Shown: positions 6,617 to 48,089 of the stretch, one piece after another
How positions within the stretch are numbered: the stretch's first letter is position 1
Layout of the letters: every line of letters begins with the position of its first letter
Source: an uncultured Selenomonas sp.
GTDB lineage: Bacteria; Bacillota; Negativicutes; Selenomonadales; Selenomonadaceae
Assembly: GCA_902766095.1 (NCBI GenBank)
Contig: CACXCN010000003.1
Coordinates: 1 to 64,000 of the forward strand
Reading direction: 5' to 3'
DNA length: 64,000 bases
Position numbers and translations under genes: made by a program
Notes under the pieces: generated by a model
Databases searched by the model: none
What the model was told of the DNA's origin: nothing
Seen by the model: only the letters and a program-made list of their open reading frames with translations

Positions 6617-6943
6617 ACAGCATCCTCCCTGATCCATCTGTCTCTAGGCATACGAAAAGGCTGTCGCGGATGGCATGGATATATCCTGCGCATCGCACGA
6701 CAGCCTCTGGGCTGAGTGTTCTGTTGCACAAAGTGAGCATCTGCACCTATGCGCAGATGCCCGGCCTACCATTGACCATTCGCCATTGCCTGTACTGACT
6801 ATATTATTTATATCGTCAGTGTAGCGGGGATGATTAAGAATCCCCTTGATATATGTATTCGCCTCAGGACGGGAAAACCCTTTTTTGCAGGTCAGTCCGG
6901 GGGCATTTGTCATGGCGAATGGTAATCGGCAGTCTAGCTGCAG
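6617..6943. other. Gene-free stretch with hairpins and a 12-bp inverted repeat
   Basis: No convincing gene is seen in these 327 bases. The stretch holds three inverted repeats. AGGCTGTCG and CGACAGCCT (within 6657-6706) form a 9-bp stem with a long loop, followed on the minus strand by TTTTCG, like a weak terminator or attenuator before the gene at 4103. GCATCTGC and GCAGATGC (about 6738-6761) form an 8-bp stem. ACCATTCGCCAT (6775-6786) and ATGGCGAATGGT (6912-6923) form a 12-bp inverted repeat around about 125 bases. The first two could end transcription from the AAA/PD-(D/E)XK gene. Confidence 0.5.
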
Positions 6944-8623: not shown

Positions 8624-8649
8624 GGCCACTCCCCTCTATGGTTCACGCC

Positions 8650-11976: not shown

Positions 11977-11989
11977 CGACTATGCCCTC

Positions 11990-13519: not shown

Positions 13520-13552
13520 TCCTTTCCTGCTCCTAAATCGCATTCTCCAAAA

Positions 13553-14863: not shown

Positions 14864-14900
14864 TTCTCCCCAGCATGATTGCCGTTATAGAAAAACTGTA

Positions 14901-24861: not shown

Positions 24862-24872
24862 ACTCATGCTCC

Positions 24873-27463: not shown

Positions 27464-27495
27464 CCTCTTCACCTACCATTGCCATTTATATGCCA

Positions 27496-31724: not shown

Positions 31725-31887
31725 CTCATCTACCTCGCCCAACTGCCAGCAACACGCCATTCATCTTATATTATTTTCTACAGCCGCATAGGAAATCCTG
31801 CCTGCAAATCTACTGTCCAAGAGCAGGATTTCACACATTCAACGCGAATAGATAGCTATACACCTGCAACTAGGAGGATAATCTACC

Positions 31888-33105
31888 ATGCGGAATAAAA
31901 TCATAGTCTACGGCAACAGCCGCCCCGGCCTGCACCCTGCCATCTGGCCTAATATACAGAGTCTGGCGCTGGGCTTCCAGCAGCTTGGCTACGAGGTATT
32001 GCTCTGCGATATATCTAGCAACAGATCATTCGTCTACTGTCTCGACCATCTGCTGACCAAGGATGATATCACATTCTCGGTCGGCTTCAACGGCTGTGGT
32101 CTGTGCGCCAACATACAGGAAATCGGTCCGGAGGAACTCTTCATTTATCGTAATCTCGACACACCGCATGTATCGGTGCTGCTCGATGTCCCCTACAACT
32201 CCTGCGCCAGTGGTCCTGAAGCCGCGGTAAAAAACCATATCGTGACACTGCTCGACCGCGATGCTGGTGAATATCTTCACCATACATTCCCCCAAAAGCA
32301 CATGCACCAACTATTCCTGCCGCTCGGCGGCACGGAGTCAGCGCTATCGCTAGAGGAACTGCTGACCAGAGAACGTCCCTACGATGTGGTCGTCAGCTCA
32401 TCGTTCTGGTTCGATGCCGAGCTCAGGCCCATCTGGGAAGCAGCGGATTTCCCGTTCCCTGCCATGATTCCCTTGCTCAATGATGTCGTCGACTATATGA
32501 AGGCCTATCCGGTCAACACCCCGACAGCCGTGTGCCATGTGCTGCACGACCGTGGTCTCTACGACGAGGAATACATGGTGCAGATGACGAAATTCTACTG
32601 GCCCATACTTTCCTATATGAAGATGTGGCGCAGACAGCGGTCCATGGAATTCCTCGTACAGAATGACATCCCGGTCGATGTATTCGGTGGCAACTGGGAC
32701 CATGTGCCATTTGCGGACAAGCTGCGTATCCATGGAAGGGTATCCTACGCCGAGACACTCGATATCTTCTCTAAAGCAAAAATCGTCTACCAGGACAATG
32801 CTGAGTTCAACAATGGCGCTCACGACCGCGTATTCACGGCCATGCTGCACGGCGCCGCCGTCATGAGCGAGTACAGCCAGTACCTGGCTGAGGAATTCGT
32901 CGACGGACAGGAACTGATGTTGTTCGACTGGCAAAACGGTATGGAGCAGGTACGCAGGCTCCCCGCTCTGCTGGCCGATGAGCCGCGCCGCCAGGAAATG
33001 GTCCTGCAAGCCTATAAAAAGGCCACAGCTCGTCACCGGTGGGTGAACCGCGCCCAAAGCATTAGCGAAGCTGTACATCTGCTGTATCCAGAAAGATTTA
33101 TATGA
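31888..33105 (+). CDS. GT-B glycosyltransferase (GT1-like C-terminal domain), paralogue of 22727-23938
   Basis: The second plus-strand gene of the island, 405 residues. It opens KIIVYGNSRPGLHPAIWPN and has VDVFGGNWDHVPFADKL, RVSYAETLDIFSKAKIVYQD, GAHDRVFTAMLHGAAVMSEY and ends LLYPERFI, following its paralogue at 22727 from end to end. Both genes point the same way and bracket the LicD/AEP/methyltransferase block. AGGAGGATAATCTACC precedes the ATG. No clear -35/-10 pair stands out in the 160-base divergent gap. A strong hairpin terminator at 33111 follows. Sugar donor unknown. Confidence 0.8.
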   Translation: MRNKIIVYGNSRPGLHPAIWPNIQSLALGFQQLGYEVLLCDISSNRSFVYCLDHLLTKDDITFSVGFNGCGLCANIQEIGPEELFIYRNLDTPHVSVLLDVPYNSCASGPEAAVKNHIVTLLDRDAGEYLHHTFPQKHMHQLFLPLGGTESALSLEELLTRERPYDVVVSSSFWFDAELRPIWEAADFPFPAMIPLLNDVVDYMKAYPVNTPTAVCHVLHDRGLYDEEYMVQMTKFYWPILSYMKMWRRQRSMEFLVQNDIPVDVFGGNWDHVPFADKLRIHGRVSYAETLDIFSKAKIVYQDNAEFNNGAHDRVFTAMLHGAAVMSEYSQYLAEEFVDGQELMLFDWQNGMEQVRRLPALLADEPRRQEMVLQAYKKATARHRWVNRAQSISEAVHLLYPERFI

Positions 33106-33162: not shown

Positions 33163-34386
33163 TTAAACGATGTCTAGTGACCGCATAGCCTTAGCCGTTT
33201 CCAACTGCAGTGCATCATATAGCGAGCTGCTCTCCGGCTGCGCCTTGGCTACATGCAGCAGCAGCACTGCCTCCTGAATCTTTTCTCTGGTGTAACCGTT
33301 CGACACGAGACAGCGCCGTATACACTCAAGCAGAGCCTGACGCAGCAACACTCCAACGGCCTCATCTCCCTGTGGCACTACTATGGCTGCATCGCGCCAG
33401 CGTGAGGAATGCCATAGCGACAAGCGATACAGATACGTGAATTCCTGATTCATATCACTCCAGATGGGATTCTGCTCGCTACAAGTGCTGAGCCAGCCTG
33501 CCGTCATGCTCAACGCTGCCGAGTACTCTCCCCGACGGATGAGGCCATAGAGCTGCCATACCGGCATGGCCAGACGCCGTTGCCAAAGCAGTTTCGTGCG
33601 TCGCTGCCATCCGGTTACCCATCGTTGATGGCGCTTCCCCATGAGCTTGGTCCTCGGCGGCCCTAATAGGATTCCGGCTGCCTTCTCGATAATAGGATTC
33701 CATATATCAGGCGGCGCACACCTTTCCCAGGCATGACAGCCAAAGGGACGCCAGCCGGTTTTAAGGCGCCGATATACATGTTGCACGTCGTCCTGCAACG
33801 AGAATTCGAGCGCCTCATACAGCGGAGCCACGCGGAAATCAATGTCCCGCCGCATGCCGCAGTAGGCGAAGAAAGAATCCTCACAGGGAAGAAACACGTC
33901 CTTCAGGGGATGACCATCTGGCAAAGTTGCAAACAATCCTGCTGCCCGCTGGCAGGCTGCTACTCGGCGCAACGAAAAGCCACCATTACCGACCTTGGTA
34001 CCGAGCAACAGCCATGGCTCCTCTCCTCGCACCGGTGCCCCTATATAATCGTAGCCCAGCTCACAGAACTCCAGCAAGCGGTCAGCAAAAACGAAGCCAT
34101 CGGTCTGGTAAAGCAGTATGTACTCATAATCGCGGAAGCGCTCGTAAAAGAGTGGCTGCAGCATGAGCAGACTATACGACATGACACTGGTGAACCACTC
34201 GTCGTCGAAGTGCTCGACCGCGAAGCCCTCTCCAAGTTCCCCAAGGTCCAGCTGCAACGACTGCGGAGCCACGAATATGCGCGGATAGCGGCCAAGCACT
34301 CTTTGCAGCTGGCACAGCGACACCCGTTCCGTTTTCTTGAGTTTATTCGTGTATATGGGGACTACCACTGCCACCTTTTTCTTCAT
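33163..34386 (-). CDS. DUF5672 domain protein, probable glycosyltransferase
   Basis: The first 230 residues match the DUF5672 pattern: VAVVVPIYTNKLKKTERVSL, YEYILLYQTDGFVFADRLLE, ELGYDYIGAPVRGE, GNGGFSLRRVAAC, EDSFFAYC, and FGCHAWER. The domain has the layout of a GT-A glycosyltransferase: a strand, then QTDGFVF in the DxD place and a GxxFLR-like acceptor site. It is common in glycan clusters, but its chemistry is not established. The rest (about 250-407) is helical with no recognised domain. The start has AAAGGTTGG 7 bases upstream. It follows the TPR gene by 21 bases, so it is in the operon that reads from the GT41 genes. Confidence 0.7.
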   Translation of the reverse strand: MKKKVAVVVPIYTNKLKKTERVSLCQLQRVLGRYPRIFVAPQSLQLDLGELGEGFAVEHFDDEWFTSVMSYSLLMLQPLFYERFRDYEYILLYQTDGFVFADRLLEFCELGYDYIGAPVRGEEPWLLLGTKVGNGGFSLRRVAACQRAAGLFATLPDGHPLKDVFLPCEDSFFAYCGMRRDIDFRVAPLYEALEFSLQDDVQHVYRRLKTGWRPFGCHAWERCAPPDIWNPIIEKAAGILLGPPRTKLMGKRHQRWVTGWQRRTKLLWQRRLAMPVWQLYGLIRRGEYSAALSMTAGWLSTCSEQNPIWSDMNQEFTYLYRLSLWHSSRWRDAAIVVPQGDEAVGVLLRQALLECIRRCLVSNGYTREKIQEAVLLLHVAKAQPESSSLYDALQLETAKAMRSLDIV

Positions 34387-34407: not shown

Positions 34408-35391
34408 TTACTTCTTCAGGTAGGCCAGCAGCAGAAAATCCGTCTCCGGCAGCCGTGCAGCGACCTGCCATGCGAGGTCCGCCTTCCCCTGGTCTTTCAG
34501 CAGTACCGCCATATTCCGGATAGTGGTTGCCGATTGGCCATCTATCGTGAGGGCCTGCTTGAGCTCTTGCTGCGCAGCCTCAAGATCACCAGCAGCATAA
34601 TGCGCACCGGCGAAATTGTTGAGCAGACACACCTTGGCAGCCAACGCTATATCTGCAGCCATAACCTGCTCGACCTCGGCTTCAATATCTGTCCCGTTCG
34701 CCAGCGGTTCAGCTACAGTCTCTGCTGATGTCACCGGCTCCTCCGCCTGGTTGACCGGTTCAGATTCCGCGATAACGGCATCCTCGATGTCCGACCCGAC
34801 TCCGGTCTGCGATGCCCCGTCTACCGTCGCTACGTCCACATGCATGAACGCTGCTATATGCGGAAAATCCTTTGCTATGTGCTCTGGATCATTCTGCGCA
34901 TAGTAGTCGAGGATATCCTCGACATCATCGTGCTGCTCCGTCGTAAGCTGATCAGCGTAATGCTCGAGCACGAAGTCGAATATGGCCAGACCGTCATCGC
35001 TGCGGTCCTCAAGCATGCAGATGCGGGCCAGCAGGATACGCGTCTCCACATCCTGTGGAGCGAACTGAAGGGTATCGTTCACGAGTGCGGCTGCTCGCAC
35101 GTAGTCACCCTGCATGAAATAGCTGTAGGCACCGAGGTACAGAGCTTTCGGATCATAGCATTTGTCCTCAATCAGCTCTGTCAAGTCTTGCAGTACGCCG
35201 AGGAAATCATCGTTATCGAATTTCTCCTGCATACGTTCTATCGTCCCAGCTGGTGCCGTTCCTGCCTGCATTTTTGCTTCCTCCATCTTCCTCATCTCCA
35301 TCTGCTGCTCGGCTTTTCCCTTTCGTGCAGTATCAGCGGCGGATACCTTTTTGTTCCGGCTCTTTCTAAGTCTCCTGCTGGCTCTGCTCAT
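34408..35391 (-). CDS. TPR-repeat protein with basic N-terminus and acidic linker
   Basis: A 327-residue protein of no known catalytic type. Residues 1-45 are very basic and coiled-coil-like (SRASRRLRKSRNKK...KAEQQMEMRKMEEAKMQ). Residues 50-165 hold TPR-like helix pairs (DPKALYLGAYSYFMQGDYVR, ETRILLARICMLEDRSDDG). Residues 185-235 are an acidic, low-complexity linker, and two more TPR units follow (LLNNFAGAHYAAGDLEAAQQ, IRNMAVLLKDQGKADLAW). In this position it could be a scaffold or chaperone for the GT41 proteins, whose own TPRs bind protein substrates. That is inference. The Shine-Dalgarno GGAAAGG is rather far (about 13 bases) from ATG 35391. Confidence 0.65.
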   Translation of the reverse strand: MSRASRRLRKSRNKKVSAADTARKGKAEQQMEMRKMEEAKMQAGTAPAGTIERMQEKFDNDDFLGVLQDLTELIEDKCYDPKALYLGAYSYFMQGDYVRAAALVNDTLQFAPQDVETRILLARICMLEDRSDDGLAIFDFVLEHYADQLTTEQHDDVEDILDYYAQNDPEHIAKDFPHIAAFMHVDVATVDGASQTGVGSDIEDAVIAESEPVNQAEEPVTSAETVAEPLANGTDIEAEVEQVMAADIALAAKVCLLNNFAGAHYAAGDLEAAQQELKQALTIDGQSATTIRNMAVLLKDQGKADLAWQVAARLPETDFLLLAYLKK

Positions 35392-35482: not shown

Positions 35483-36970
35483 CTACTGCTGTCTCAGCCA
35501 GCTCTGCCAGATTTCCTTATATAGTCTCTCGAGTGCACGCACATAGCCCTTCGCATCCATGAGTGGTGTATGACGCAGCATTTGCGGCAGCTGATCATGT
35601 AGCCCCTGCAGTAGCTCGCGGTCCTGCGCGAGCTGCACCGCCCGCTCGATATAGCCCGCATCATCCGGTGACGCTAGCTCCCCCAGGCCGACATTCATGA
35701 GTATGCTATAGCCGAAACGTGTACCATGACGGCTGCCGTAGCGCGAGATAACCGGCACCCCCATGTAGAGTGCATCGCAGGTCGTGCCGCCACCCGTGTA
35801 GGGATAGGTGTCGAGAGCTATATCCACATCATTGTAGCGCTCCAGGTAGTCCAATCCGGACTTGTCGATGTCCACGCGCGCCATGTCGATTCCGGTCTTC
35901 TCCAATTTGCGACGCAGGTTGCTTTCGTACTCCGCCTCATCAAGCGAGCTCTTTATGAGCAGGCGGCTCCCCGGTACGCGACGCAATATCTCGGCCCAGA
36001 GCCGCAGCTGCTCGGCTGTCATCTTGTGGTAATTATTGAAACTGCCGAAGACTATGGGCTCATGCACATGGTAGGGCCTCTGCGCCCGGAGTGCTCGTAT
36101 CGACGGCGTATAGCATAGATGCGAGTGCGGCATCCGCAACAGCTGCTCGGCAAAATCGGCCTCGTGCTCCCCCGGCGGGTCGCAGTAGGGATCGCTCAGG
36201 AAATAGTCCACAGCATGGCTCCCCGAGGTGCTCATGTAGCCGATGCCGGCCACCTGCACCGGCGCCGGACGGTAGCTCATGATCTGCATGGTCGGCCCGC
36301 CGAGGCAGTGGACATTCGTATCGAATAGGATGTCTATCTCGTCGTCATAGATGGCCTGCGCCATCTCGTGCGGCTCCATATCCTCATTGAAGCACCGCAG
36401 CCTCACGCCCCACTCCTGCATGGAGTGCGTCACACCGTCCTGCCTGTCCTCGAGGCTATAGGCATAGATCTCGAAATCCTGCCGGTCGTATATGGCGAAT
36501 AGCTGGATGAGGAAGAAGCTCGTAACGCCCTCGCAGAAATGCGGACTCAGGTAGCCGATGCGCAGGCGCGCATGGCGATGGCGAGTTCGCGCATGCGGCA
36601 GCGGCAACGACTGCTGCGCCACGGCCGCGAACATGTCGTACAGGAATGACCTCTCGCGCAGCTCAGCATCGGTCGTGCTGACAAGGTAATGCAGGCCGAA
36701 TATATGGTTCGAGAGCTGGCGCTGCTGCGTCATGATCGGCTGGCCGGCCGGCATATTGAGCGCCTGCCAGGCATACTGCTCGGCCTGCTCCAGCTCATCG
36801 AGCCCGCGGCAGCAGTCAGCCAGACGATAGAGGATGGCCCATCGCTCATCCGGTGCCAGGGAGCCATCCTGCAGCTTCCGTTGCAGATAGTTGCGGGCAC
36901 CACGCAGATTCCTCTGCTCTATCATTTGATTGGCCCGCTCGAACACCCGGCCCAGCTTCTTCCTGTTCAT
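35483..36970 (-). CDS. SPINDLY/GT41 family protein O-glycosyltransferase
   Basis: GT41 enzymes put GlcNAc (or a related sugar) on Ser/Thr of proteins. The 495-residue protein has an N-terminal helical/TPR region (1-125) and a GT41 domain (about 135-495). The nucleotide-sugar parts are intact: SFNNYHKMTAEQLRLWAEIL with the UDP-binding Lys and LDTYPYTGGGTTCDALYMGV. In the first strand, LRIGYLSPHFCEGVTSFF, the position held by the conserved His of OGT (GNH) is Gly. The start is ATG 36970, whose ATGA overlaps the stop of the next gene upstream and which has GGAGGAGGG in front; the longer frame from 37009 is disfavoured. Last of three GT41 genes in a row. Confidence 0.82.
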   Translation of the reverse strand: MNRKKLGRVFERANQMIEQRNLRGARNYLQRKLQDGSLAPDERWAILYRLADCCRGLDELEQAEQYAWQALNMPAGQPIMTQQRQLSNHIFGLHYLVSTTDAELRERSFLYDMFAAVAQQSLPLPHARTRHRHARLRIGYLSPHFCEGVTSFFLIQLFAIYDRQDFEIYAYSLEDRQDGVTHSMQEWGVRLRCFNEDMEPHEMAQAIYDDEIDILFDTNVHCLGGPTMQIMSYRPAPVQVAGIGYMSTSGSHAVDYFLSDPYCDPPGEHEADFAEQLLRMPHSHLCYTPSIRALRAQRPYHVHEPIVFGSFNNYHKMTAEQLRLWAEILRRVPGSRLLIKSSLDEAEYESNLRRKLEKTGIDMARVDIDKSGLDYLERYNDVDIALDTYPYTGGGTTCDALYMGVPVISRYGSRHGTRFGYSILMNVGLGELASPDDAGYIERAVQLAQDRELLQGLHDQLPQMLRHTPLMDAKGYVRALERLYKEIWQSWLRQQ

Positions 36971-38466
36971 CGCACCACGCCCTCCTCCGCCTGTGCCTGC
37001 TGCCGCCATCTGTCAAATACCTGCCGGTAAACCTGCTCGACCTCGCTGAGATAGAGGCGCGCATTCATGAGCGGCGACTCGCGCATCATCTGCGGCAGCT
37101 GCTCATGCAACGCTGTGAGCAGCTGCCGGTCCTGGGCTAGCGCCACAGCTCGCTCGATATAACCCGCGAGATCTGGCGCTGCGAGCTCACCGAGGCCGAC
37201 ATTCATGAGCAGCGAATAGCCGAAGCGCGAGCCATGGCGCCGACCATAGCGCGTGACGACCGGTACCCCCATATAGAGCGCATCACAAGTCGTACCGCCG
37301 CCCGTATAGGGGTAGGTATCGAGCATGATGTCGACGGCTGTATAGCGATTGAAGAAATCATCCGATGGCCCCTCCATGGTCAGTCGTTCCTCGGGAATGC
37401 CGGCCGCCAGCATGCGGCGGTGCATTTCCTTCATCTGGTAGTGGCTCCGCGAGGTATTCTTGGCTAGCAGGCGAGCCTCCGGTACGCGCCGCAATATCTC
37501 GGCCCAGCCCGCGAGCATTTCATCGCTTATCTTATTGAAGTTGTTGAAGCTCGCGAATACTATCTGCTCATGCGGCTGCCATTTCTCATGTACCCGCAGG
37601 ACTCGCGCCGATGGCGTATAGCAGAAATGCGAGTGTGACAGCCGGATGATCTCCTCGGCAAAATCTTCATCATGCAGTCCCGGGGGATCGAGATACTGGT
37701 CTCCGAGGAAGTAATCGATGACCTTCGTGCCCGAGGTCGACATGTAGCCGATACCGGATATCTGTACCGGGGCCGGCTTGTAGCAAAGCACACGCAGGGT
37801 ATGACCGCCCGAGACATGCACCTCGAGATCGAACATGATATCTATCTCATCGTCGTAAATGACCTGTGCGATATCGTGGATGTTCTGCCCCTCCTGGAAG
37901 AGCCGCACAATCTGCACATGCTCACGCACCTGCTTATAAACGGCATCTATACAACCATCATCCAGCACATAGACATACACCTCGAACTCGTCGCGATTGT
38001 AGGCTGTCATGAGCTGCATGTAGAAGAGACTAAGCACGCCATGCCCCATCTGGTTCATGATGTAGCCGATGCGCAGTTTTGCGTGCTGATGACGGCGCAG
38101 GGGATGCTGGAACTGGACCGCCGTCTGAGCAAACTTATCATATAGGAAGGACGTCTCGCGCAGTTCCTCATCACTGAGATCAGGCAAATAGTGCAGGTTG
38201 AACAGAAAATTGCTGAGCATCTCTTCCTGCCGCTCGCGCTGCAGCCCTTCGACTGCATTCAGCGATTTCCAGACGGCCGCTTTCCAACGCGGCCAATCGC
38301 CAAGCTTGAAGTAGGCACCTGCATACTGCTGATATACAGCCCACATGTCCGTTTTCTGAAATATTCCCCCCCGCATCATGGATTGCAGCTTCGATATTGC
38401 CATAAGCGGCTGCAATTCAATCAGTTTACTCAGTCCCTGCAGTTTATCCTTTGCCGTTTTCTCCAC
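36967..38466 (-). CDS. SPINDLY/GT41 family protein O-glycosyltransferase
   Basis: A 499-residue paralogue of its two neighbours. It has the helical N-terminal part (1-125), LRIGYIMNQMGHGVLSLFYM, ISGIGYMSTSGTKVIDYFLG, ASFNNFNKISDEMLAGWAEI with the UDP-binding Lys, and LDTYPYTGGGTTCDALYMGV. The OGT His position again reads Gly, with a His one residue earlier. Predicted activity is transfer of a sugar from a UDP donor to Ser/Thr of a protein substrate, most simply flagellin. The start is GTG 38466, about 10 bases after AGAGGA; it overlaps the end of the double GT41 gene by 23 bases and its stop overlaps the next gene by 4, so the three are coupled. Confidence 0.85.
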   Translation of the reverse strand: MEKTAKDKLQGLSKLIELQPLMAISKLQSMMRGGIFQKTDMWAVYQQYAGAYFKLGDWPRWKAAVWKSLNAVEGLQRERQEEMLSNFLFNLHYLPDLSDEELRETSFLYDKFAQTAVQFQHPLRRHQHAKLRIGYIMNQMGHGVLSLFYMQLMTAYNRDEFEVYVYVLDDGCIDAVYKQVREHVQIVRLFQEGQNIHDIAQVIYDDEIDIMFDLEVHVSGGHTLRVLCYKPAPVQISGIGYMSTSGTKVIDYFLGDQYLDPPGLHDEDFAEEIIRLSHSHFCYTPSARVLRVHEKWQPHEQIVFASFNNFNKISDEMLAGWAEILRRVPEARLLAKNTSRSHYQMKEMHRRMLAAGIPEERLTMEGPSDDFFNRYTAVDIMLDTYPYTGGGTTCDALYMGVPVVTRYGRRHGSRFGYSLLMNVGLGELAAPDLAGYIERAVALAQDRQLLTALHEQLPQMMRESPLMNARLYLSEVEQVYRQVFDRWRQQAQAEEGVVR

Positions 38467-41400
38467 GAACTACCATCCTCTGCCATAGATATATATACTG
38501 CTCTTCGAGCTCGGCCACATACTGCTTCGTATTCATCAGCGGCGCTCCCATCATCATGCTGCGCAGATTCCGATGCAGGACATCGAGCAGATCAGCATCG
38601 CGCGCGAGTGCCACGGCCCGGGCTACATACTCAGTGGGCGTTGCCACTGCCAGCTCACCGACACCGGCATTCATCAGTATCGAGAGCCCCAGGCGGTCGC
38701 CATGGCGCCGCCCGTAGAGCGATACGACCGGCACGCCCATATAGAGCGCATCGCAGGTCGTCCCGCCGCCCACATAGGGATAGGTATCGAGCGCGATATC
38801 GACATCGAGGTAGCGCTCCATGTAGTTGGCAGTCGTTCCCTCAATCTCCACGCGGCTCATGTCGAGTCCCAGCGCCGCCAGCCGCTCGTACTCCGCGAGA
38901 CAGCCCTGCGGTGTATTGGCCTGCGGATTCTTGAGCAGGAGCCGGCTGCCCGGCACCGCCTGCATGATCTCCCGCCATAGTCCTATCATCTTATCGGTGA
39001 TTTTGCTGTAGCGGTTAAATACGCCGAACGTGACATAGCCCTTCGCGCGACAAGGTGCGCCAACCGGCTCTGGCACATCGCTGCGTCCGGTATAGCAGAA
39101 CTGGCTCGTGAGCCGCACAGGCCGCTCATGGAGTCCGGCCCATGTATCAGCCTCATCCTCTGGCGGATCGGCATAGCTATCAGTGATGAAGCCATCGACA
39201 CCTCTGAGGCCCGTAGGATGGATGTACCCGATGCCGGCCAGCTGCACCGGCGCCGGTCTATAGGCCAACACTGGCAGTCCGCCGCCAGCCACATGTCCCG
39301 CGAGGTCGACGAGCACATCGATGCCATCATCGCGGATGCGCCTCGCGAGGCCCGCATAGTCATCCCGCCTGCCGGAGCAGTCCACATAGTGATTTACGGC
39401 CCCGCGCACGAGCTCCGTGAAACCATCCTGACGCGAATTCAACGCATAGGCATAAATTTCGAAAGCATCCGTCGTATGTCCCACCAGCAGCTGATAGTAA
39501 AAATAGAACATGACCTGATTGCGGAAATCCGGCGATAAATAACCGATGCGCAGGCGATGGTCAGGACGTGCTGCAAGGCGCTGCGAAAGCTCGATCGGAC
39601 TGAGCTCCGGCAGAATCTCTGCATCCCTGAGCAAATCGTTGTAGCCCATATGGGCCGCATTGAGCGCCCGGATATCCTCGGTCGTGTCACCAGCATAGTG
39701 GTGCATGGTCAGCAGGGCTGAGCTGTACATGTGGCAGCGGTCGGGCAAATGCTCCGCTGCCTGCGAGGCCCGCATATAGTCCGCGGCCCCAGCCTCATTC
39801 TCTCCCATACCGCTCTCGCCATGGGCCAGCTTGGCCAGCAGATCCATGCGGAAGTCACTCGGTGCAGACGACTCGGCAACAGTCCCCAGCTCCTGCAGGC
39901 CCTGCCGGGCTGCATCACGGCATCCCACGAAATTGCCGAGGCTCATGCGGGCCTCGGCCAGCATGCGATAGAGCTCCGCGCGATGCTCTGTATCGTAGGC
40001 TAGCGCCTGCTGCAGCCACCAGCTCGTACGGCCCCAGTCATGCCTAGTATTCCGGCTGCGCTCATACTGTGCCATCGCTCCAGCTGCATAGGCCATAGCC
40101 AGATTCCTTTTATCCGCGGTACCCGCTATGATTTCAAGCGCTAGCTGACGCACCTGATTCCAATCATCAGTCTGTGAACAGCTCTGCAGGCGCAGACATT
40201 TCTCAGCGATATCCATAGCTCGTGCGGCCTCCGGCATGTCGGCCTCGACATAGTCCAGCCAGATACGCATATAGGCCTGCTCGACTGCCGCCATGTAGTC
40301 GGCCGACTGCATGACCGGTGACCTCTGCATATCCCAGCGCAGCGTATCGTGATAGCGGCAGAGCCTCTCCGTGTCGTGGGCCAGCTCCACGGCTATCCTT
40401 ATATACTCAGCCACATCCGCTGCACAGAGCTCCTCGTGGCCGACATTCGTGAGCAGCGAGCCGCCGAAGCGCGCCCCATGCCGCTCTCCGACGAGTGTTA
40501 CGACCGGCACGCCCATGTAGAGCGCATCGCACGTCGTACCGCCGCCCGGATATGGGAACGTATCGAGTGCGATATCCATCTCATGATAGTGCCGCAGGTA
40601 CTTTGGCTCCTGCTCCCCCAGAATCACACGGGCAAGGTCGATACCAGCCGCAGCTATGCGCTTTTTTGCGGCCTCGGCCGTATAAGGCTTGTTGAATACC
40701 GCCGCTTTCAGATAGAGGCGGCTGTCCGGCACCTGGCGCATGATCTCGCTCCAGACCTGCAGCACCGCATCAGATACCTTGGCGAAATTATTGAAGCTGC
40801 CGAACGTGATATAACCATTTCGGCGGCAGGGAGCCGGACCGGGATAGTCAGGCGCATCGTGCCACATGAAGCAGAAATGGCTCTGCGGCAGCCGCAGCAG
40901 TTTCTCCACAAACCATTTGTCATTCGGCTCAGGTACATCCTCAGGATCGGTATAATGGTCGGCGAGGAAATAATCTACTGCCGGTAGTCCCGTCGTGCCG
41001 AAATAGCCGATACCGGATACCTGTACAGGTGCTGGCTTGCAGGCCAGTACGGGCAGGAAGTTATTCGCGGTGTGTCCGGCCAGGTCTATCAGGATATCGA
41101 TCTCATCAGCGTGCACGATTCTCGCCACCTCGTCCGGTGGCAGGCCGCGCACATTGCGCCACTTGTCCGTGATGGCGGCGAATTCGCGGCTTGCTCCATC
41201 CTCCAGGCAATCGGTATAGCAGTAGACCTCGAACAGCTCGTGGTCATACGAGTGAAAGAAGGCATAGCTGAAGAAGGCCACAACGTGGAAATGCAGGTCG
41301 GGCGATATGTAGCCGAGCCGCAGCTTGCCCCGCTTCTGCCAGCGTGCCTTGAGCTTCGCTCGGTCGTATCCATAGGGCTTGATAGCCGCGAACAGCTTGC

Positions 41401-41959
41401 CGTAGCCGATGGCTGCCTCATACATGAATTCCGGCGGCTTCGCGAGATAGTGCAGATTGAACAGGTAGTTGCTGTACTCCGCAGCCTTGCCGTGCGCGAG
41501 GTCCTTGTAGTCGCTCGACCTACGAAATAGCTCCACAGCCTGCTCTATGCGACCGAGCTGGCGGCAAAGCGTCGCATAGATACTGCAGGCTGCACCACGA
41601 TACCACTCGGGCATGGACTCATCCGCCAGCGCTGCCTGCAGGTGCTGCTCAGCAGCTGCTCCATCATCGGCCAGCAGGGCCACGCGTCCGAGGTAGAACT
41701 GCGCCACGCCATCCATCGGTCCCCAGACAGATGCTCTGCCGAAATGTGCTGCATAGTCTGCGGCTATCTGTGCTGCCCGCGCGGGCCCGCCCTGCCCGTC
41801 GATCAAGGCGGCCAGGATGGCCTCATACATGCGGCGGTCCGACGGCTGCGCCGCATAGAGCGCCTCGGCCAGCTGCAGGGCTTCGGCCCAGTCGCGCCGG
41901 TCCATGGCTGCCGTCAGATCATTGAATAGCTGTAGTTTCTCGCGATAGGTCATCATCAT
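38444..41959 (-). CDS. Tandem double-domain SPINDLY/GT41 protein O-glycosyltransferase
   Basis: At 1171 residues this is about twice the size of its neighbours and contains two full TPR + GT41 units. Unit 1 has TPR-like helices at 1-190 and a GT41 domain at about 212-570, with GYISPDLHFHVV including His225 in the OGT active-site place, the UDP-binding Lys394, and PYPGGGTTCDALYMG. Unit 2 has helices at about 590-795 and a GT41 domain at about 802-1160, with GYLSPDFRNQVM where Gln815 replaces the His, and VFNRYSKIT and PYVGGGTTCDALYMG intact. One domain may start the glycan and the other extend or bind. ATG 41953 (third Met) has the best spacing to GGAG, so the first two Met may not be used. 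First of three GT41 genes. Confidence 0.85.
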   Translation of the reverse strand: MMMTYREKLQLFNDLTAAMDRRDWAEALQLAEALYAAQPSDRRMYEAILAALIDGQGGPARAAQIAADYAAHFGRASVWGPMDGVAQFYLGRVALLADDGAAAEQHLQAALADESMPEWYRGAACSIYATLCRQLGRIEQAVELFRRSSDYKDLAHGKAAEYSNYLFNLHYLAKPPEFMYEAAIGYGKLFAAIKPYGYDRAKLKARWQKRGKLRLGYISPDLHFHVVAFFSYAFFHSYDHELFEVYCYTDCLEDGASREFAAITDKWRNVRGLPPDEVARIVHADEIDILIDLAGHTANNFLPVLACKPAPVQVSGIGYFGTTGLPAVDYFLADHYTDPEDVPEPNDKWFVEKLLRLPQSHFCFMWHDAPDYPGPAPCRRNGYITFGSFNNFAKVSDAVLQVWSEIMRQVPDSRLYLKAAVFNKPYTAEAAKKRIAAAGIDLARVILGEQEPKYLRHYHEMDIALDTFPYPGGGTTCDALYMGVPVVTLVGERHGARFGGSLLTNVGHEELCAADVAEYIRIAVELAHDTERLCRYHDTLRWDMQRSPVMQSADYMAAVEQAYMRIWLDYVEADMPEAARAMDIAEKCLRLQSCSQTDDWNQVRQLALEIIAGTADKRNLAMAYAAGAMAQYERSRNTRHDWGRTSWWLQQALAYDTEHRAELYRMLAEARMSLGNFVGCRDAARQGLQELGTVAESSAPSDFRMDLLAKLAHGESGMGENEAGAADYMRASQAAEHLPDRCHMYSSALLTMHHYAGDTTEDIRALNAAHMGYNDLLRDAEILPELSPIELSQRLAARPDHRLRIGYLSPDFRNQVMFYFYYQLLVGHTTDAFEIYAYALNSRQDGFTELVRGAVNHYVDCSGRRDDYAGLARRIRDDGIDVLVDLAGHVAGGGLPVLAYRPAPVQLAGIGYIHPTGLRGVDGFITDSYADPPEDEADTWAGLHERPVRLTSQFCYTGRSDVPEPVGAPCRAKGYVTFGVFNRYSKITDKMIGLWREIMQAVPGSRLLLKNPQANTPQGCLAEYERLAALGLDMSRVEIEGTTANYMERYLDVDIALDTYPYVGGGTTCDALYMGVPVVSLYGRRHGDRLGLSILMNAGVGELAVATPTEYVARAVALARDADLLDVLHRNLRSMMMGAPLMNTKQYVAELEEQYIYLWQRMVVRGENGKG

Positions 41960-41989
41960 GCTCCATCCGTCTTATTTTCTCCGATGCTG

Positions 41990-42090
41990 AGGGGCGCTAA
42001 GACTCCCGCCTCTTCAGGCGGGAGATAAGCGCCCCTAAAGCCCTGGGTAAGTTCGACTAAATTCATAGGGAGTAAAAACTCCCTATGAAT
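41990..42090. mobile_element. Pair of strong hairpins, possible solo end of an IS200/IS605-type element
   Basis: The gap between two glycosyltransferase genes holds a two-part hairpin at 41990-42036 and a perfect 13-bp hairpin at 42061-42090. The first has arms AGGGGCGCT/AGCGCCCCT outside and CTCCCGCCT/AGGCGGGAG inside. The second has arms ATTCATAGGGAGT/ACTCCCTATGAAT around AAAA. Between them lies a GGGTAAGTTCGACTAAATTCA-like stretch. The arrangement resembles the 3' ends of IS200/IS605 TnpB elements as I remember them, where the hairpins form the right end and the omega RNA. No tnpA or tnpB is present. The alternative is an ordinary terminator or processing site for the minus-strand operon; no long T-run follows. 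Confidence 0.4.
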
Positions 42091-42100
42091 AAGTCTCACT

Positions 42101-43591
42101 TTATCTCATCATCCCGGCGTAATGCCAGCGCTCGCGGGGCGGTATCAGGGCGCAGATACCATCTGCCTGGCCCGACCATGTGGCGAGTCCATAGATCTGC
42201 CGCAGCTCTGCGGCTGCCTGGCAGGCGGCCGCCCGATAGCGACCCGCTGCCATCAGCGCGCTATCACTCGTGAGGCTGCGCCCCGCATGGCGCGCGTAGT
42301 ATATATAGACAGCTCCGCCGTGGCACTGCGCGAGCTCCTGGGCGAGCCAGCCCGCATCATGCCGTACATCGTAAAGACCATTCAATATCTCGATGATATC
42401 CGTCTCCGTCGCCCCGATATCCCGCAGCAGGGCGAGAAAGTCTCCGAGCAGGCCGCTATGATGCGGATGACGCTGCAGACCGGCCAGAAAATGCTGCTGT
42501 GCCTCATCCCGATCTCCGCGCAGCTGGCAAAGCTGGCCCAGCCGCCAGTCCACCGAGGGCAGCAGCCGTTCGGCATTGTCGATGAGTGCCGTCACGCTGA
42601 CCGACTGGCTGTTGCCCGCCTGACGCTCGCACTGCTGCTCCCTTTGCCGCCGCTCATGCAGGGTGAGCCCCTGCCTGAGCAATTCCTCCGCCGTCAGATA
42701 GTCACCTAGCTCATAGAGCCAGAGTCCCTGCATGAGCACGAACTCGGCATCCTCAGGACAGGCTGCCCGAGCCGCCGTAAGCGCCGCCTGCGTCTCTGCC
42801 TCGGGGAACTTCCCCTCGATGCAGGAGCTCGTCCATATCTCATAGGCCCGCCCCCGATTGTCCTCTGATAGCTCGGGATAGCTCAGCAGCTGCCGCGCAT
42901 AACCGATAGCCTTGCGATACTCGCCGAGGCCATAGGCGATATCCATGAGATAGCCATAATCGAGCGGCTCGGGTGCCCCCTGACGCTCTATCTTCGCCTG
43001 CATGAGCGCGAGATTGCGTCGCATCTTCTGCTGCGCCACGCTTGTCGAGTAGCCCGTATGGTAGATCGTGATATCATCGGCCAGCAGGCGCACGCTGTCC
43101 GCCGGTATGGTCAGCGACTCATGGATGGCTCCCGCATAGCGTATATCCGGACGATGGCGGAATATGCGCTGCTGGATGATGGCCGAGCTCACGCGCCAGC
43201 CCGCATCGACATCTACATTCACGAGGCGGCACAATATCCCAAGCGTCTGCGGGCTTTGTTCTGCCTGCCGCAGCAGCGGCCGGATGCGTGGCCGCGACTC
43301 CGGCGTGAAATACTCATCCGCATCGAGGAACAGAATCCAGCGCCCGCGGGCCTGATCGAGCGCATAGTTCTTCGCCGCCGCGAAATCGTCAATCCAGGTA
43401 AAGTGAAATACACGCGCCCCCGCCTGCTCGGCCAGGGCAACCGTCGCATCCGTGCTGCCAGTATCGACGACTATGAGCTCATCGGCTACCTCACGCATGG
43501 AGTCAAGCCAGCGTGGCAGGTTGCATTCCTCGTTCTTCGCGATGACGCAGGCCGAGACCATGACATCGTTTTTCTTTTCCTGCTTCCTCAT
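42101..43591 (-). CDS. GT2 glycosyltransferase with C-terminal TPR-like region
   Basis: The protein (496 residues from ATG 43591) starts with a GT2 domain of about 230 residues: VSACVIAKNEECNLPRWLDS, LIVVDTGSTDATV, WIDDFAAAKNYALDQA and the metal-binding LFLDADEYF. HTGYSTSVAQQKMRRNLALM follows, as in SunS-like protein glycosyltransferases. The remainder (240-496) is TPR-like helices (YGLGEYRKAIGYARQLL, MQGLWLYELGDYLTAEELL, HFLAGLQRHPHHSGLL). GT2 joined to TPR suggests a protein rather than lipid acceptor. The start overlaps the stop of the upstream gene as ATGA and has GGAGGAGAGAGC before it; the longer frame to 43672 is a shadow. Donor unknown. Confidence 0.82.
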   Translation of the reverse strand: MRKQEKKNDVMVSACVIAKNEECNLPRWLDSMREVADELIVVDTGSTDATVALAEQAGARVFHFTWIDDFAAAKNYALDQARGRWILFLDADEYFTPESRPRIRPLLRQAEQSPQTLGILCRLVNVDVDAGWRVSSAIIQQRIFRHRPDIRYAGAIHESLTIPADSVRLLADDITIYHTGYSTSVAQQKMRRNLALMQAKIERQGAPEPLDYGYLMDIAYGLGEYRKAIGYARQLLSYPELSEDNRGRAYEIWTSSCIEGKFPEAETQAALTAARAACPEDAEFVLMQGLWLYELGDYLTAEELLRQGLTLHERRQREQQCERQAGNSQSVSVTALIDNAERLLPSVDWRLGQLCQLRGDRDEAQQHFLAGLQRHPHHSGLLGDFLALLRDIGATETDIIEILNGLYDVRHDAGWLAQELAQCHGGAVYIYYARHAGRSLTSDSALMAAGRYRAAACQAAAELRQIYGLATWSGQADGICALIPPRERWHYAGMMR

Positions 43592-46326
43592 GCTCTCTCC
43601 TCCGCACTCCAAGCCTGATAGGCCGCGAGACTGCGCTCTGGGCAGCCAGCCTCGGCGGCGCGGGCAAAGCACTCCGCAGCCCCGGGCTGGCGCAGTCGAT
43701 AGAGCGACACACCCACGCGATACCAGAACTCGCCATCGGCTGCTGCCGCCGGGACACAGCCCAGCAGCTCGAAGGCCGCTGCCAAGGCTCCCTTCCCCTG
43801 CAGCTCGGCCGCCGCCCGCTCCACCAGCGCCCAGTCCGGCGCGAAGTCAGCCGCGAGCTCAGCATAGCGCGACCAATCCGGCAGCGTCGCAGCGCTACCC
43901 TGCGCGAGTGCCATCAGGCCCGACTGCCAGGCATCGAAATGTCCGCCTGTGAGTGCCTGACTGCTGCCCGCCGCCCGCAGCAATACGCGCTGCAGCGGCT
44001 CTGGCAGTACATCTGAGGCGGCGAGCCAGGCCTCCCGGTCTGCCTCAGCGACCGGTATCTGATAGTATAGCGCGGCAAACAGTTCGCGCAGCACCTGCCC
44101 GAAGGCCTGGGGCAGCTCCGAGGTCACCTGATTCCGCTCCCCCGCGGCCGCAAGCTGCACGAGATGCGAAGCCGGTATATCGGGCCCGTCCTCCAGGGCA
44201 GCCAGGGCTGCCTGTACGTCCCAGTGCCCGCGCTCACGCGCCCAGCCCATCAACTGCTCGCGGTCTGCCTGACCGAGCCCTGCCCAACGTTCCGACAGCT
44301 TTTTCGCCAGGCTATCCCCGCTGCCAGCCCCAGCATACCAGTCATCAAATGATTGGAAAGCCTCGAGCCTGTCCAGCTCCTGCTGATACTCTGTCTCCTG
44401 TGGATAGGCCTCCAGAGCGCTGCGGGCCGCAGCTATCCGCTCTGCCTCGGGCCGTCCCGCCAGCCGCAGGGACGACAGCCATACCGAATACATCTCCCGC
44501 TGGCCTGCGACGAACTCCGGTCCTCGCTTTATGGCCAGCTCGGCATAATGCGCCGCAAGCTCGTACTCCGCCAGTCCGTAGCAGGTACTGGCCAGGTAGC
44601 GCCAATGACGCGGCTGCTCGCCGTGCGCCTTTATATCGGCCTCGAGCAGTACGAGATTGCGCCGTGCCTTGGTCACGGCTTTGCTCGTCGCATAGCCCGT
44701 ATGGCAGACAGCCAAGGCCGGTAGGAGCGTCTGAGCTGGCACAGCGCTCAGGCTGCCATCCGGCTGGATATCATACACTGCCTCATGCACATGTCCGATG
44801 AAGCGACGTCCGTCTCTTGCCCGCCAGAGGCGCAGCAACGGCACGCGGTCGATTTCCTCGCCGAGACGGTCCGTATCGACGTTTATGAGCGGCACCTGGA
44901 CTCCCTGCACGGCGCCCGGCAGCAGCTGCAGCAGGCCGCGCACGCGCTCCGGGTGATAGAAGCGCTCATCGGCATCGAGGAATACGTACCAATGCTCAGC
45001 CTCCGGCACAGCTGCCGCAGCAGCGAGAACTGCGTTTTTCGCCGCCGCAAAGTCAAAATCAGCCGCGTTCCCCAAGCTCAGATCCAATACCTTGGCCCCA
45101 GCCGCACGTACCAAGTCAGCACTGCCATCACCTGAGCCGGTGTCGCCGACCACGATCTCATCGGCGAATTGCTGAGCGTCTGCGAGCCAATCCGGCAGGA
45201 CAGCCGCCTCGTCCTGACAGATGAGTCCGGCTGTGATGAATACCTGACGCTGCTGCGCCTGACGTATATGCATGAGCAGCTGCTGTACCTGCTCGCGCTG
45301 CGCGGCCGTGAACTGGCGCGGCTCGAGCGAATTGGCTGGCTGATGAATAGCTAAGGCCCGCTCGAGTGCCTGACCGGCCGCGGCCAGCTCGCCGACGCTG
45401 AGCAAGGCACCGCCATACTCAGCCGCGAGCTCCGGCAGCTCCGGGAAGTCCTGCACAGCCTGGCGGGCCAGCCTGAGCCGCGCCTCGAGCAGCTCGTACT
45501 GCCTGAGGCCCTCCGTCTGTTCGAGTTTCCTCGCTATGACGCCGAGAGCCAGATGGTAGGACCGGCTCGCAAAGACCACGTTGCGGCGTCCCTGAGCGAT
45601 ATCGAGCCGGGCATAGCGCAGAGCGGCGTCCATATCGTCTACACCGCGACAGGCCTCGGCCAGATACATGTAGAGCCTGCCCGCCGCTGCCTGTCGTTCC
45701 TCTGGAGTCGCCAGTTTCTGTGCTTCCTGCAGTTCCTGCTGCAGGATACGCAGATTCCGCTCTGCCTTCGGGCGGTTCACCTCTCTGGCATAGCCCGTAT
45801 GATAAAGCAGCAGCTCCCCGCGTGGCACCAGGGCCAGGCCATCAAGTGGCTGCCCACCATCGCGCAGCTCCTCATGGATGCGCCCCATATAGCGGCGTCC
45901 CGGCCGCAGGGCAAAGATGCGCAGATTCGGCTCCTCGCTGAGCACCTCGCCCGTCGCTGTCTCTAGACTCACACGGCTGACGAGCAGAGCCGATTTGCCT
46001 GCTGTCTCCGCTCTGGTGATGACGTTGCGTATATTACCTGCCGTCTCCGCACTGAAATACTCATCGGCATCGAGGAATATGACCCAGTCCGTATCCGGTG
46101 TCAGGCGGCTGAGCTCGCCCAAAGCGAAATTACGGGCGGCAGCAAAATCATCGCACCAAGCGAAGTGGCGAACCACAGCCCCGAGATCCTGCGCTGTCTT
46201 CACTGTCGCATCCTGCGAGCCTGTGTCTATCACTAGCAGCTGATTGTAGCACTCACGCAAGCTGGCAATCGAGCGTCGCAGATTCGTCGCCTCGTTGCGC
46301 ACGATGTAACAGGCAGCTATGTTCAT
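43588..46326 (-). CDS. Tandem double GT2 glycosyltransferase with TPR-like regions
   Basis: The 912 residues hold two GT2 domains of the same kind as the next gene. Domain 1 (about 1-230) has IAACYIVRNEATNLRRSIAS, LLVIDTGSQDATV, WCDDFAAARNFALGEL and FLDADEYF. Domain 2 (about 365-590) has ITAGLICQDEAAVLPDWLAD, IVVGDTGSGDGSADL, FDFAAAKNAVLA and VFLDADERF. Helical TPR-like stretches lie between them and in the last 300 residues. It may add two sugars in succession to a protein. It is the first gene of the glycan operon downstream of flagellin, begins at ATG 46326 after GGAGGGAAATCA, and overlaps the next gene by 4 bases. Donor sugars are unknown. Confidence 0.82.
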   Translation of the reverse strand: MNIAACYIVRNEATNLRRSIASLRECYNQLLVIDTGSQDATVKTAQDLGAVVRHFAWCDDFAAARNFALGELSRLTPDTDWVIFLDADEYFSAETAGNIRNVITRAETAGKSALLVSRVSLETATGEVLSEEPNLRIFALRPGRRYMGRIHEELRDGGQPLDGLALVPRGELLLYHTGYAREVNRPKAERNLRILQQELQEAQKLATPEERQAAAGRLYMYLAEACRGVDDMDAALRYARLDIAQGRRNVVFASRSYHLALGVIARKLEQTEGLRQYELLEARLRLARQAVQDFPELPELAAEYGGALLSVGELAAAGQALERALAIHQPANSLEPRQFTAAQREQVQQLLMHIRQAQQRQVFITAGLICQDEAAVLPDWLADAQQFADEIVVGDTGSGDGSADLVRAAGAKVLDLSLGNAADFDFAAAKNAVLAAAAAVPEAEHWYVFLDADERFYHPERVRGLLQLLPGAVQGVQVPLINVDTDRLGEEIDRVPLLRLWRARDGRRFIGHVHEAVYDIQPDGSLSAVPAQTLLPALAVCHTGYATSKAVTKARRNLVLLEADIKAHGEQPRHWRYLASTCYGLAEYELAAHYAELAIKRGPEFVAGQREMYSVWLSSLRLAGRPEAERIAAARSALEAYPQETEYQQELDRLEAFQSFDDWYAGAGSGDSLAKKLSERWAGLGQADREQLMGWARERGHWDVQAALAALEDGPDIPASHLVQLAAAGERNQVTSELPQAFGQVLRELFAALYYQIPVAEADREAWLAASDVLPEPLQRVLLRAAGSSQALTGGHFDAWQSGLMALAQGSAATLPDWSRYAELAADFAPDWALVERAAAELQGKGALAAAFELLGCVPAAAADGEFWYRVGVSLYRLRQPGAAECFARAAEAGCPERSLAAYQAWSAEERA

Positions 46327-46340
46327 TGATTTCCCTCCCG

Positions 46341-46414
46341 AAAGCCTTCCCTTTTTCCCTTACTACACCTCTTTCGTCAGCTGCGCTGACACCTTCCCCA
46401 TAGGGGAAGGCTTT
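46341..46414. repeat. REP/MITE-like palindromic intergenic element
   Basis: A 74-base unit bounded by AAAGCCTTCCC (46341-46351) and GGGAAGGCTTT (46404-46414), with an inner palindrome GTCAGC-tgc-GCTGAC (46376-46390) and a small hairpin CCTTCCCC-ata-GGGGAAGG (46392-46410). The order of motifs resembles a class of short repeats common between genes of gut Firmicutes. It sits between the flagellin terminator and the ribosome-binding site of the first glycan gene. Confidence 0.55.
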
Positions 46415-46438
46415 ATATTACATATTCGCCATGTATAG

Positions 46439-46467
46439 AAAAAACCCTCTCCCATACGGGAGAGGGT
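46439..46467 (-). terminator. Rho-independent terminator of the flagellin gene
   Basis: On the minus strand ACCCTCTCCC-gtat-GGGAGAGGGT forms a 10-bp perfect stem with a 4-base loop, followed by TTTTTT. It lies about 40 bases after the flagellin stop and separates flagellin from the glycan operon. Confidence 0.92.
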
Positions 46468-46505
46468 CATAGCTACTGTAGTAACTACTATCCGTGAGAT
46501 AGGGA

Positions 46506-47831
46506 TTACTGGAGCAGGCTGAGAACGGACGAGCTGTTCTGGTTGGCCTGCGACAGCATGGACTGTGCAGCCTGGAGCAGGACGTTGTTCTTCGTGTACT
46601 CCGTCATCTCTTTCGCCATATCGGCGTCGCGGATGGTGGACTCCGAGCTCTGGACGTTCTCGGAAGCCGTGGTCAAGTTGCTGCTGGTGTACTCGAGGCG
46701 GGACTCAACGGAACCAATGGTGGTTTGCTGGTCGAGGGCCTTCTGTACAGCGTTGTCGAGCACGTTGATCGCAGCATTCGCCTGCTTCTGCGTACCGATC
46801 TGGATGGTCTTGCCCGTCGAGGACTGGAGGCCGAGCGCCTCAGCGCGCATATCGGTCAGACCGACCTTGATGCTCTGGTTAGCTTTCGTGCCGATCTGCA
46901 ACGATATCGCATTGTCCTCCGACTTGTTCTGAGCGCGAATCGATTCGGAGAAGTTATCAAGCACAGCATTGATGGACTTCTGCTCTGCGCCTTGCGTGTT
47001 AGTAACAGCAAAGGTTACACCAGAAATCTGGCCAGCCACACCGGATGTAGCCGCCTGAATCGTCAGCGCATTGCCGCGATCAGCCGTGTAGACGGTATCA
47101 CCAGCGATATCCTTACCGATGACAGCGGTCGAGCCGCTCGTCTTCATGTATTTGGAGATAGCTACCGTTGAGCCGCCACCGACAGCACTCTTGCTGAGGA
47201 GATCATCCAAGCCATTCGCGCCGATCTGCATCGAAGTCGTGTAGGTCGTGCCCTCATTGACGAACGACACCGAGATGGAATACGTCGAGTTGATGTTCAG
47301 GCTGTTGCCATTGCGGTCAGTCATCGCCGTCAGATCCGTAGTCCACTCAGTCGTGCTATTCAGGCTCTCATTCGTCATAGCCGTCGTCGTCTGCGTGACG
47401 TGAGCGTTCTTCGAACCATCAACGAGGTACTTGCCGTTGAACGTGACGTTCGCGTTGTCGTTGATCTGGTCGATGCTCTGGTCGAGCTCTTTCTGGATCG
47501 TAGCGCGGTCGCTGTCGGTGTTCGAATCGTTGGCTGCGTTGATGACTTTCTCTTTGAGGGTCTTCAGGATATCGACGGTGCTGGAGACAGCGCCCTCGGC
47601 GACCTTCATCATGCTGGTGCCATTCTGGGTGTTGCTGTTCGCCTGGTCGAGGCCGCGGATCTGGACGCGCATGCGCTCAGATATTGCATACCCCGAAGCG
47701 TCATCAGCAGCGCTGTTGATCTTCATGCCCGAGGAAACCTTCTGCAGGCTCTTCGAGAGTGCCGACGAGTTCTTGTTCAACGTGTTCAGCGTGGAGATTG
47801 CCGACATGTTGTTCTTTACTACCATTGCCAT
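46506..47831 (-). CDS. fliC: Flagellin
   Basis: The filament subunit, exported by the flagellar type III system and polymerised outside the cell. The conserved ends are clear: MVVKNNMSAISTLNTLNKNS and VSSGMKINSAADDASGYAIS at the N-terminus; STIRDADMAKEMTEYTKNNV and LLQAAQSMLSQANQNSSSVL at the C-terminus. The 441-residue length implies a moderate variable domain (about 140-310). Residues 146-201 are very rich in Ser/Thr (24 of 56), a plausible field for O-glycosylation by the GT41/GT2 proteins next door. At the usual TLR5 contact (QRVRELAV in Salmonella) it reads KTLKEKVI. GGGAGGAATTTATC precedes ATG 47831. It is monocistronic, with a sigma-28 promoter at 47999-48024 and a strong terminator at 46439. 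Confidence 0.96.
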   Translation of the reverse strand: MAMVVKNNMSAISTLNTLNKNSSALSKSLQKVSSGMKINSAADDASGYAISERMRVQIRGLDQANSNTQNGTSMMKVAEGAVSSTVDILKTLKEKVINAANDSNTDSDRATIQKELDQSIDQINDNANVTFNGKYLVDGSKNAHVTQTTTAMTNESLNSTTEWTTDLTAMTDRNGNSLNINSTYSISVSFVNEGTTYTTSMQIGANGLDDLLSKSAVGGGSTVAISKYMKTSGSTAVIGKDIAGDTVYTADRGNALTIQAATSGVAGQISGVTFAVTNTQGAEQKSINAVLDNFSESIRAQNKSEDNAISLQIGTKANQSIKVGLTDMRAEALGLQSSTGKTIQIGTQKQANAAINVLDNAVQKALDQQTTIGSVESRLEYTSSNLTTASENVQSSESTIRDADMAKEMTEYTKNNVLLQAAQSMLSQANQNSSSVLSLLQ

Positions 47832-47998: not shown

Positions 47999-48024
47999 AT
48001 ATCGGATGTCGCGGACGGAACTTA
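47999..48024 (-). promoter_or_regulatory. Sigma-28 (FliA/SigD) promoter of flagellin
   Basis: On the minus strand TAAG, 15 bases, then CCGATAT. This matches the TAAA-N15-CCGATAT flagellar sigma factor consensus at all but one of the 11 specified bases. It lies about 168 bases before the flagellin ATG and just downstream of the rng stop. Confidence 0.85.
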
Positions 48025-48089
48025 ATACCCTTTCGATAATTTTTTTCGTCATTTTCAGCCGCGGTCACTATGGACTGCTATCTACAGGC

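Follow-up and report, generated by a model that had tools for sequence, protein, structure and literature searches.

What does a flagellin gene followed by a long train of glycosyltransferase genes make, and on which protein is the product placed? This question is raised by the window analyzed here, a 64,000-nucleotide stretch of DNA from an uncultured Selenomonas sp. (GenBank assembly GCA_902766095.1, contig CACXCN010000003.1, positions 1 to 64,000, forward strand), in which flagellin is succeeded by two GT2 genes, three GT41 genes and then a gene for a TPR protein. The original prediction for this DNA had recognized that gene order, which is confirmed, and had proposed that the locus O-glycosylates flagellin and that the sugar is neither pseudaminic nor legionaminic acid, a proposal supported by co-occurrence, conserved linkage, GmaR homology and the published glycosylation of the flagellin of S. 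sputigena. Its coordinates were positions 35483-47831; the gene train extends much further, to about position 461, and includes a complete pathway for 2-aminoethylphosphonate (AEP) that had been overlooked. Gene content, homology, linkage, co-occurrence and catalytic residues were established directly, and they point to what is likely a Selenomonadaceae island for the O-glycosylation of flagellin in the cytoplasm, with a glycan that would be capped with AEP. Within this reading, glycosylation of flagellin by the locus appears highly probable, and the chances that AEP ends up on the flagellin glycan seem to be about even. Features whose coordinates are written below in the form x..y lie on the minus strand of the window unless otherwise stated.

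The association with flagellin was studied in 121 Selenomonadaceae genomes of 30 genera and, for linkage, in a set of 13 contiguous genomes representing six genera; these statistics ignore relatedness, and the linkage represents conserved synteny rather than thirteen independent cases. Flagellin is present in 115 of the 121 genomes, with GT41 in 114 of those 115 and in none of the six flagellin-less genomes, which make up three whole sampled genera, all devoid of both GT41 and GT2 (Fisher for flagellin with GT41, 2e-9 by genome; 2.5e-4, i.e. 1 in 4060, by genus). Among the GT41 clusters of the contiguous genomes 14/46 are situated within 20 kb of a flagellin, against 1.6 expected, and the largest GT41 array is found 6.4-8.5 kb from a flagellin in 12/13. 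Comparisons of these sequences indicate that the GmaR-like GT2s, not the GT41s, are the most constant partner of flagellin: they occur in 107/121 genomes and 0/6 of those without flagellin, the eight other genomes that lack them being mostly incomplete assemblies, and by coordinates each of the 13 contiguous genomes has a GT2 homolog no further than ~13 kb from a flagellin. In the window these are a double GT2 of 912 aa resembling GmaR and SunS (43588..46326; Pfam GT2 in two stretches) and a GmaR-like GT2 of 523 aa with weak TPRs (42101..43672). For both, the top PDB match is the glycosyltransferase domain of GmaR (22ao; E 6.5e-22 and 4.1e-29 respectively), which transfers N-acetylglucosamine (GlcNAc) to Listeria flagellin (PMC9638930). 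Passages of two further sources describe the flagellin of S. sputigena as heavily O-glycosylated (PMC10202936 and PMC13339959, both citing Rath 2018). Genome G029, which is probably S. sputigena, given flagellins spaced like SELSP_0329 and SELSP_0429, displays the order flagellin, double GT2, GT2, triple-unit GT41, further GT41, TPR protein, methyltransferase, cytidylyltransferase, PEP mutase and four SULF-TPR genes (for the last two see below).

The overlooked pathway comprises a cytidylyltransferase-like domain fused to phosphoenolpyruvate (PEP) mutase (26165..27472; TIGR02320, 400.5 bits, cut-off 319.6), phosphonopyruvate decarboxylase (16412..17527; TIGR03297, 469.8 bits, cut-off 312.5), AEP transaminase (24873..25991; TIGR03301, 422.9 bits, cut-off 360.8), a LicC/PntC-like cytidylyltransferase (27496..28191) and a LicD-family phosphotransferase (23959..24867; PF04991, 138 bits). 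Judging from their homology, these proteins together can make AEP and may also activate it. PEP mutase is encoded in 32 of the 121 genomes, and in nine of these, from six genera, it lies within ~30 kb of a flagellin (the source genome G000, G018, G020, G029, G049, G051, G071, G086 and G093). There is a chemical precedent in Clostridioides difficile, whose type A flagellin glycan carries AEP on a GlcNAc and whose flagellin modifications fall within residues 133-212 (PMC8861647). No paper putting phosphonate biosynthesis in a flagellin locus was found, many subscription papers falling outside the search, and the literature on Selenomonas with aminoethylphosphonate returned nothing relevant.

Which protein might attach the AEP? 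A candidate phospho- or phosphono-transferase is a soluble protein with TPR-type repeats and an alkaline-phosphatase-superfamily domain, here termed SULF-TPR (28292..30445; PF00884). Its structure model (pLDDT 86, pTM 0.89) consists of N-terminal helical repeats and an alkaline-phosphatase-superfamily core with fold matches to sulfatases and YejM (E ~1e-15), and fold, metal ligands and a Thr nucleophile together place it in that superfamily. Across 56 homologs Asp328, Thr366, Asp549 and His550 are invariant; having Thr as the nucleophile rules out a formylglycine sulfatase and agrees with a phosphotransferase, and in the absence of a Cys/Ser nucleophile from all 56 an ordinary formylglycine-dependent S1 sulfatase was rejected. 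No membrane helices were found in SULF-TPR; as a soluble protein it would work in the cytosol, the compartment in which flagellin receives its modification prior to export. It is present in 29/32 genomes with PEP mutase versus 12/89 others (Fisher 4e-15), and all its clear relatives in the genome collection, as retrieved by a scan with only two peptide patterns, belong to the Selenomonadaceae. In Anaerovibrio lipolyticus (L109) it directly adjoins flagellin, and Anaerovibrio slackiae (L104) has the compact order flagellin-GT2-GT41-TPR-SULF-TPR-PEP mutase.

A strictly AEP-specific SULF-TPR was rejected, because in several relatives without PEP mutase its neighbors are choline kinase, LicC-like and EamA (LicB-like) genes; four such loci (L082, L083, L087 and L089) suggest a phosphocholine version of the cassette. 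In the simplest reading SULF-TPR and/or LicD would attach a CMP/CDP-activated small group to a glycan, this being AEP here and probably phosphocholine there. That SULF-TPR itself is the transferase in the AEP-to-flagellin-glycan step is a tentative assignment, with chances that we place somewhat short of even. More speculative still is the broader proposal of a new soluble cytoplasmic transferase family with a TPR-type arm, which, prior to export, would use a Thr intermediate to load flagellin glycans with CMP/CDP-activated AEP, or with phosphocholine in the relatives with lic genes, and might so yield flagella with genetically encoded C-P bonds. As a separate observation, oral Selenomonas (L118, L121, L123 and L124) possess arrays of several SULF-TPR paralogs in tandem, with as many as eight in one genome; these arrays adjoin PEP mutase or phosphonopyruvate decarboxylase and are distant from flagellin.

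The mechanism envisaged for the locus would have the GmaR-like GT2s and an intact GT41 unit, with TPR-type helical arms as guides, glycosylate Ser/Thr residues in the exposed middle domain of flagellin, in the cytoplasm before export. Other glycosyltransferases, methyltransferases and GT9/TibC-type enzymes would elongate and vary the glycan. PEP mutase, decarboxylase, transaminase and cytidylyltransferase would produce CMP-2-aminoethylphosphonate, from which LicD and/or SULF-TPR would transfer AEP to the glycan. In this scheme we infer flagellin as the acceptor, the position of AEP on its glycan and the identity of the AEP transferase.

Several observations weigh against this interpretation, the first of which concerns the GT41s. 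The original prediction had spoken of three GT41 genes; that number stands, but there are four catalytic units, because the tandem protein of 1171 aa (38444..41959; PF13844 above cut-off, in four stretches) carries two. At the positions of SPINDLY Asp491, His495 and Lys665, which we take to be functionally important in SPINDLY and OGT, its N-terminal unit has D/H/K and its C-terminal unit D/Q/K, and the proteins at 36967..38466 and 35483..37009 (PF13844 above cut-off in both) have Q/G/K and H/G/K. The triad is thus altered in three of the four units, with only the N-terminal unit of the tandem protein appearing canonical. This might mean that only the GmaR-like GT2s modify flagellin, the GT41s here being mostly inactive remnants or scaffolds, as would also fit genome G066, with flagellin and GT2 and no GT41, and G075, where GT2 lies beside flagellin and GT41 elsewhere. 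However, one unit is intact, the nucleotide-binding Lys is retained in 4/4, the reading frames are uninterrupted, and the full triad is found in 24/30 flagellin-linked GT41 units of relatives; we consider such a restriction to the GT2s unlikely and retain the intact GT41 unit in the proposed mechanism. Tandem fusions of two or three GT41 units (1079-1998 aa) are common in the arrays of relatives. Giant three-unit versions (1683-1998 aa) directly follow flagellin and GT2 at L092:6305-12301, L100:13826-18877 and L052:14144-19207.

The transferases had further been described as TPR-bearing. Pfam recovers no TPR in the GT41s or the first GT2, and sub-threshold TPRs in the second GT2, so far as families go; the description fares better for the GT41 at 35483..37009, in whose structure model an N-terminal helical array is present. 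This model (pLDDT 87) superposes over its whole length, including the TPR part, on SPINDLY (TM 0.83), so that its N-terminal helices are TPR-like. The matches of the GT41s are, in order, SPINDLY, Thermobaculum OGT, XcOGT and human OGT. The separate TPR protein (34408..35391; TPR families above cut-off), which recurs in the arrays of relatives, might serve as an adaptor.

A second adverse point is a terminator-like hairpin (46443..46468; 11-bp stem and T run) 3' of flagellin. It lies between flagellin and the glycosyltransferase array, and because of it flagellin and the first GT2 gene are probably not one simple transcript. Upstream of flagellin, by ~170 bp, a sigma-28-like promoter of the form TTAA-N15-TCCGATAT (47999..48025) is an exact yet weak match, and a fitted one, the pattern having been composed after the sequence was read; the three matches with up to two mismatches in the window equal chance expectation, and this count is not significant. 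The flagellin itself (46506..47831; 441 aa; Flagellin_N 130.6 bits and Flagellin_C 80.6 bits, above cut-off) has a Ser/Thr-rich patch at residues 146-201, where the earlier count of 24 Ser/Thr among 56 residues was exactly reproduced. This peak is only mildly unusual (p ~0.025 when the central region is shuffled). In relatives, array-linked flagellins reach maxima of 19-25, for the most part around residues 145-200; two further flagellins of the same genome reach 19, and the control FliC of E. coli K-12, not known to be glycosylated, reaches 18. With such a p value and such a control, Ser/Thr density was rejected as proof of glycosylation.

The acceptor is also called into question by a TibC/Aah-family protein O-heptosyltransferase in the gene train (20619..21848; TIGR04414, 331.8 bits, cut-off 200; 4rap, E 1e-64). 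It points to protein acceptors other than flagellin, and its family membership suggests either such further acceptors or heptose on flagellin. One could envisage a locus for cytoplasmic O-glycosylation of proteins in general, acting mainly on autotransporters or other proteins of the cell surface and only by chance a neighbor of flagellin, and additional GT41 genes on contigs without detected flagellins would agree with this. Nevertheless, almost all contiguous relatives have the largest GT41 array and the GmaR-like GT2 linked to flagellin, and GT41/GT2 and flagellin are absent together, making a chance neighborhood very improbable and leaving flagellin as the favored acceptor. The source genome (G000) has three single GT41 genes on contigs C60, C37 and C6, away from its flagellins, and the contiguous relatives likewise carry a few solo GT41 genes.

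The remaining adverse points bear on AEP. The cytidylyltransferase is closer to LicC (1jyk, E 5e-32) than to PntC (6pd1, PntC-AEPT, E 1e-11), and in the 12 genomes of genus g8 (oral Selenomonas-type) that encode PEP mutase, a long distance separates the phosphonate and SULF-TPR genes from flagellin, because of which AEP may serve lipopolysaccharide or another glycan. The GT2/GT41 array might then glycosylate flagellin while the phosphonate half (30.4 kb to 16 kb) is a mere neighbor that decorates lipopolysaccharide, capsule or a teichoic-acid-like polymer, all the more as polymer loci commonly contain LicD and CDP-glycerol-type genes and most Ppm/PntC loci have been tied to cell-surface glycans (PMC6697681). 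Opposed to this are the proximity of PEP mutase to flagellin in six genera, the compact gene order of A. slackiae, the chemical precedent in C. difficile, and the solubility and TPR-type N-terminus of SULF-TPR, unlike the membrane-bound periplasmic transferases. We regard the mere-neighbor explanation as a real possibility that is still rather doubtful, and continue with a flagellin glycan capped with AEP as the preferred reading.

As to the sugar, the lack of pseudaminic and legionaminic acid genes noticed in the original prediction holds throughout this 99.8% complete genome. A true NeuB was not found genome-wide, partial matches reaching 36-49 bits versus ~300 bits in NeuB-bearing relatives, and pseudaminic or legionaminic acid was rejected as the sugar in this genome. 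Gmd was likewise not found in the genome (best match 71 bits), leaving GDP-fucose made via Gmd unsupported as a donor for the SPINDLY-like enzymes. RmlB is present, and dTDP-rhamnose is a possible donor by this token. With no NeuB, no Gmd and RmlB present, a nonulosonic acid is unlikely, and a glycan of rhamnose or GlcNAc type is possible.

The rest of the gene train encodes a DUF5672 protein (33163..34386; PF18922, 145 bits) and, by domain matches, two GT-B glycosyltransferases of the Glyco_trans_1_2 family on the opposite, plus strand (31888..33105 and 22727..23938), a methyltransferase (30450..31760), a GT2-type glycosyltransferase of the Glyco_tranf_2_5 family (21856..22410), a GT2-methyltransferase fusion (19240..20598), another GT2-type glycosyltransferase (17624..19201), and a methyltransferase-GT1 fusion with a GT2-type gene (10414..13543). 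Two heptosyltransferase-type GT9 genes (13553..16190; PF01075) lie between the last two of these. Two long proteins of the train (8650-10254 and 4103-6637) have no Pfam or NCBIfam match, and the former recurs in related genomes close to AEP, LicD or SULF-TPR genes (L059, L072, L089, L099 and L114). An AAA-ATPase_like/PDDEXK_9 gene (6944-8629) is situated inside the glycan gene train.

A complete phosphonate pathway in a conserved flagellin-modification neighborhood of rumen, gut and oral bacteria, accompanied by a candidate transferase family, opens the source of phosphonate-capped flagella and the enzymes behind them to direct testing. It is also relevant to Selenomonas sputigena, a species whose heavily glycosylated flagellin features in discussions of dental caries and periodontitis.

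The locus is reminiscent of several known systems. With GmaR of Listeria monocytogenes, a flagellin O-GlcNAc transferase and antirepressor, it shares a GT2 domain with helical repeats behind it; here, two GT2 domains are combined in one gene, GT41 arrays come next, and there is no sign of the antirepressor part. In the enterobacterial flagellin islands (De Maayer and Cowan 2016, PMC4875605, a text that does not mention phosphonate genes) a SPINDLY-type GT41 similarly lies beside flagellin with variable tailoring genes, but GT2 and GT41 are mutually exclusive there, whereas in the present locus they stand together and include GT41 tandem fusions. FlmG of Caulobacter (PMC7591256) is comparable as a cytoplasmic two-part enzyme with a flagellin-binding N-terminal domain and a transferase; it uses pseudaminic acid, in contrast to this genome, where NeuB was not found. 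The PntC/LicD phosphonate-tailoring loci (PMC6697681) have PEP mutase, decarboxylase, AEP transaminase, nucleotidyltransferase and LicD in common with ours, in which these genes are linked both with flagellin and with a soluble TPR/alkaline-phosphatase-superfamily protein; flagella, sulfatase and alkaline phosphatase go unmentioned in that text. In C. difficile the origin of the AEP is unexplained because the species has no PEP mutase homolog (PMC8861647), while here a full AEP pathway is placed by flagellin. As far as gene content and homology indicate, the locus departs from the known flagellin glycosylation islands in bringing together enzymes of GmaR-like and SPINDLY-like type, a cassette that would cap the glycan with phosphonate, and what may be a new transferase family.

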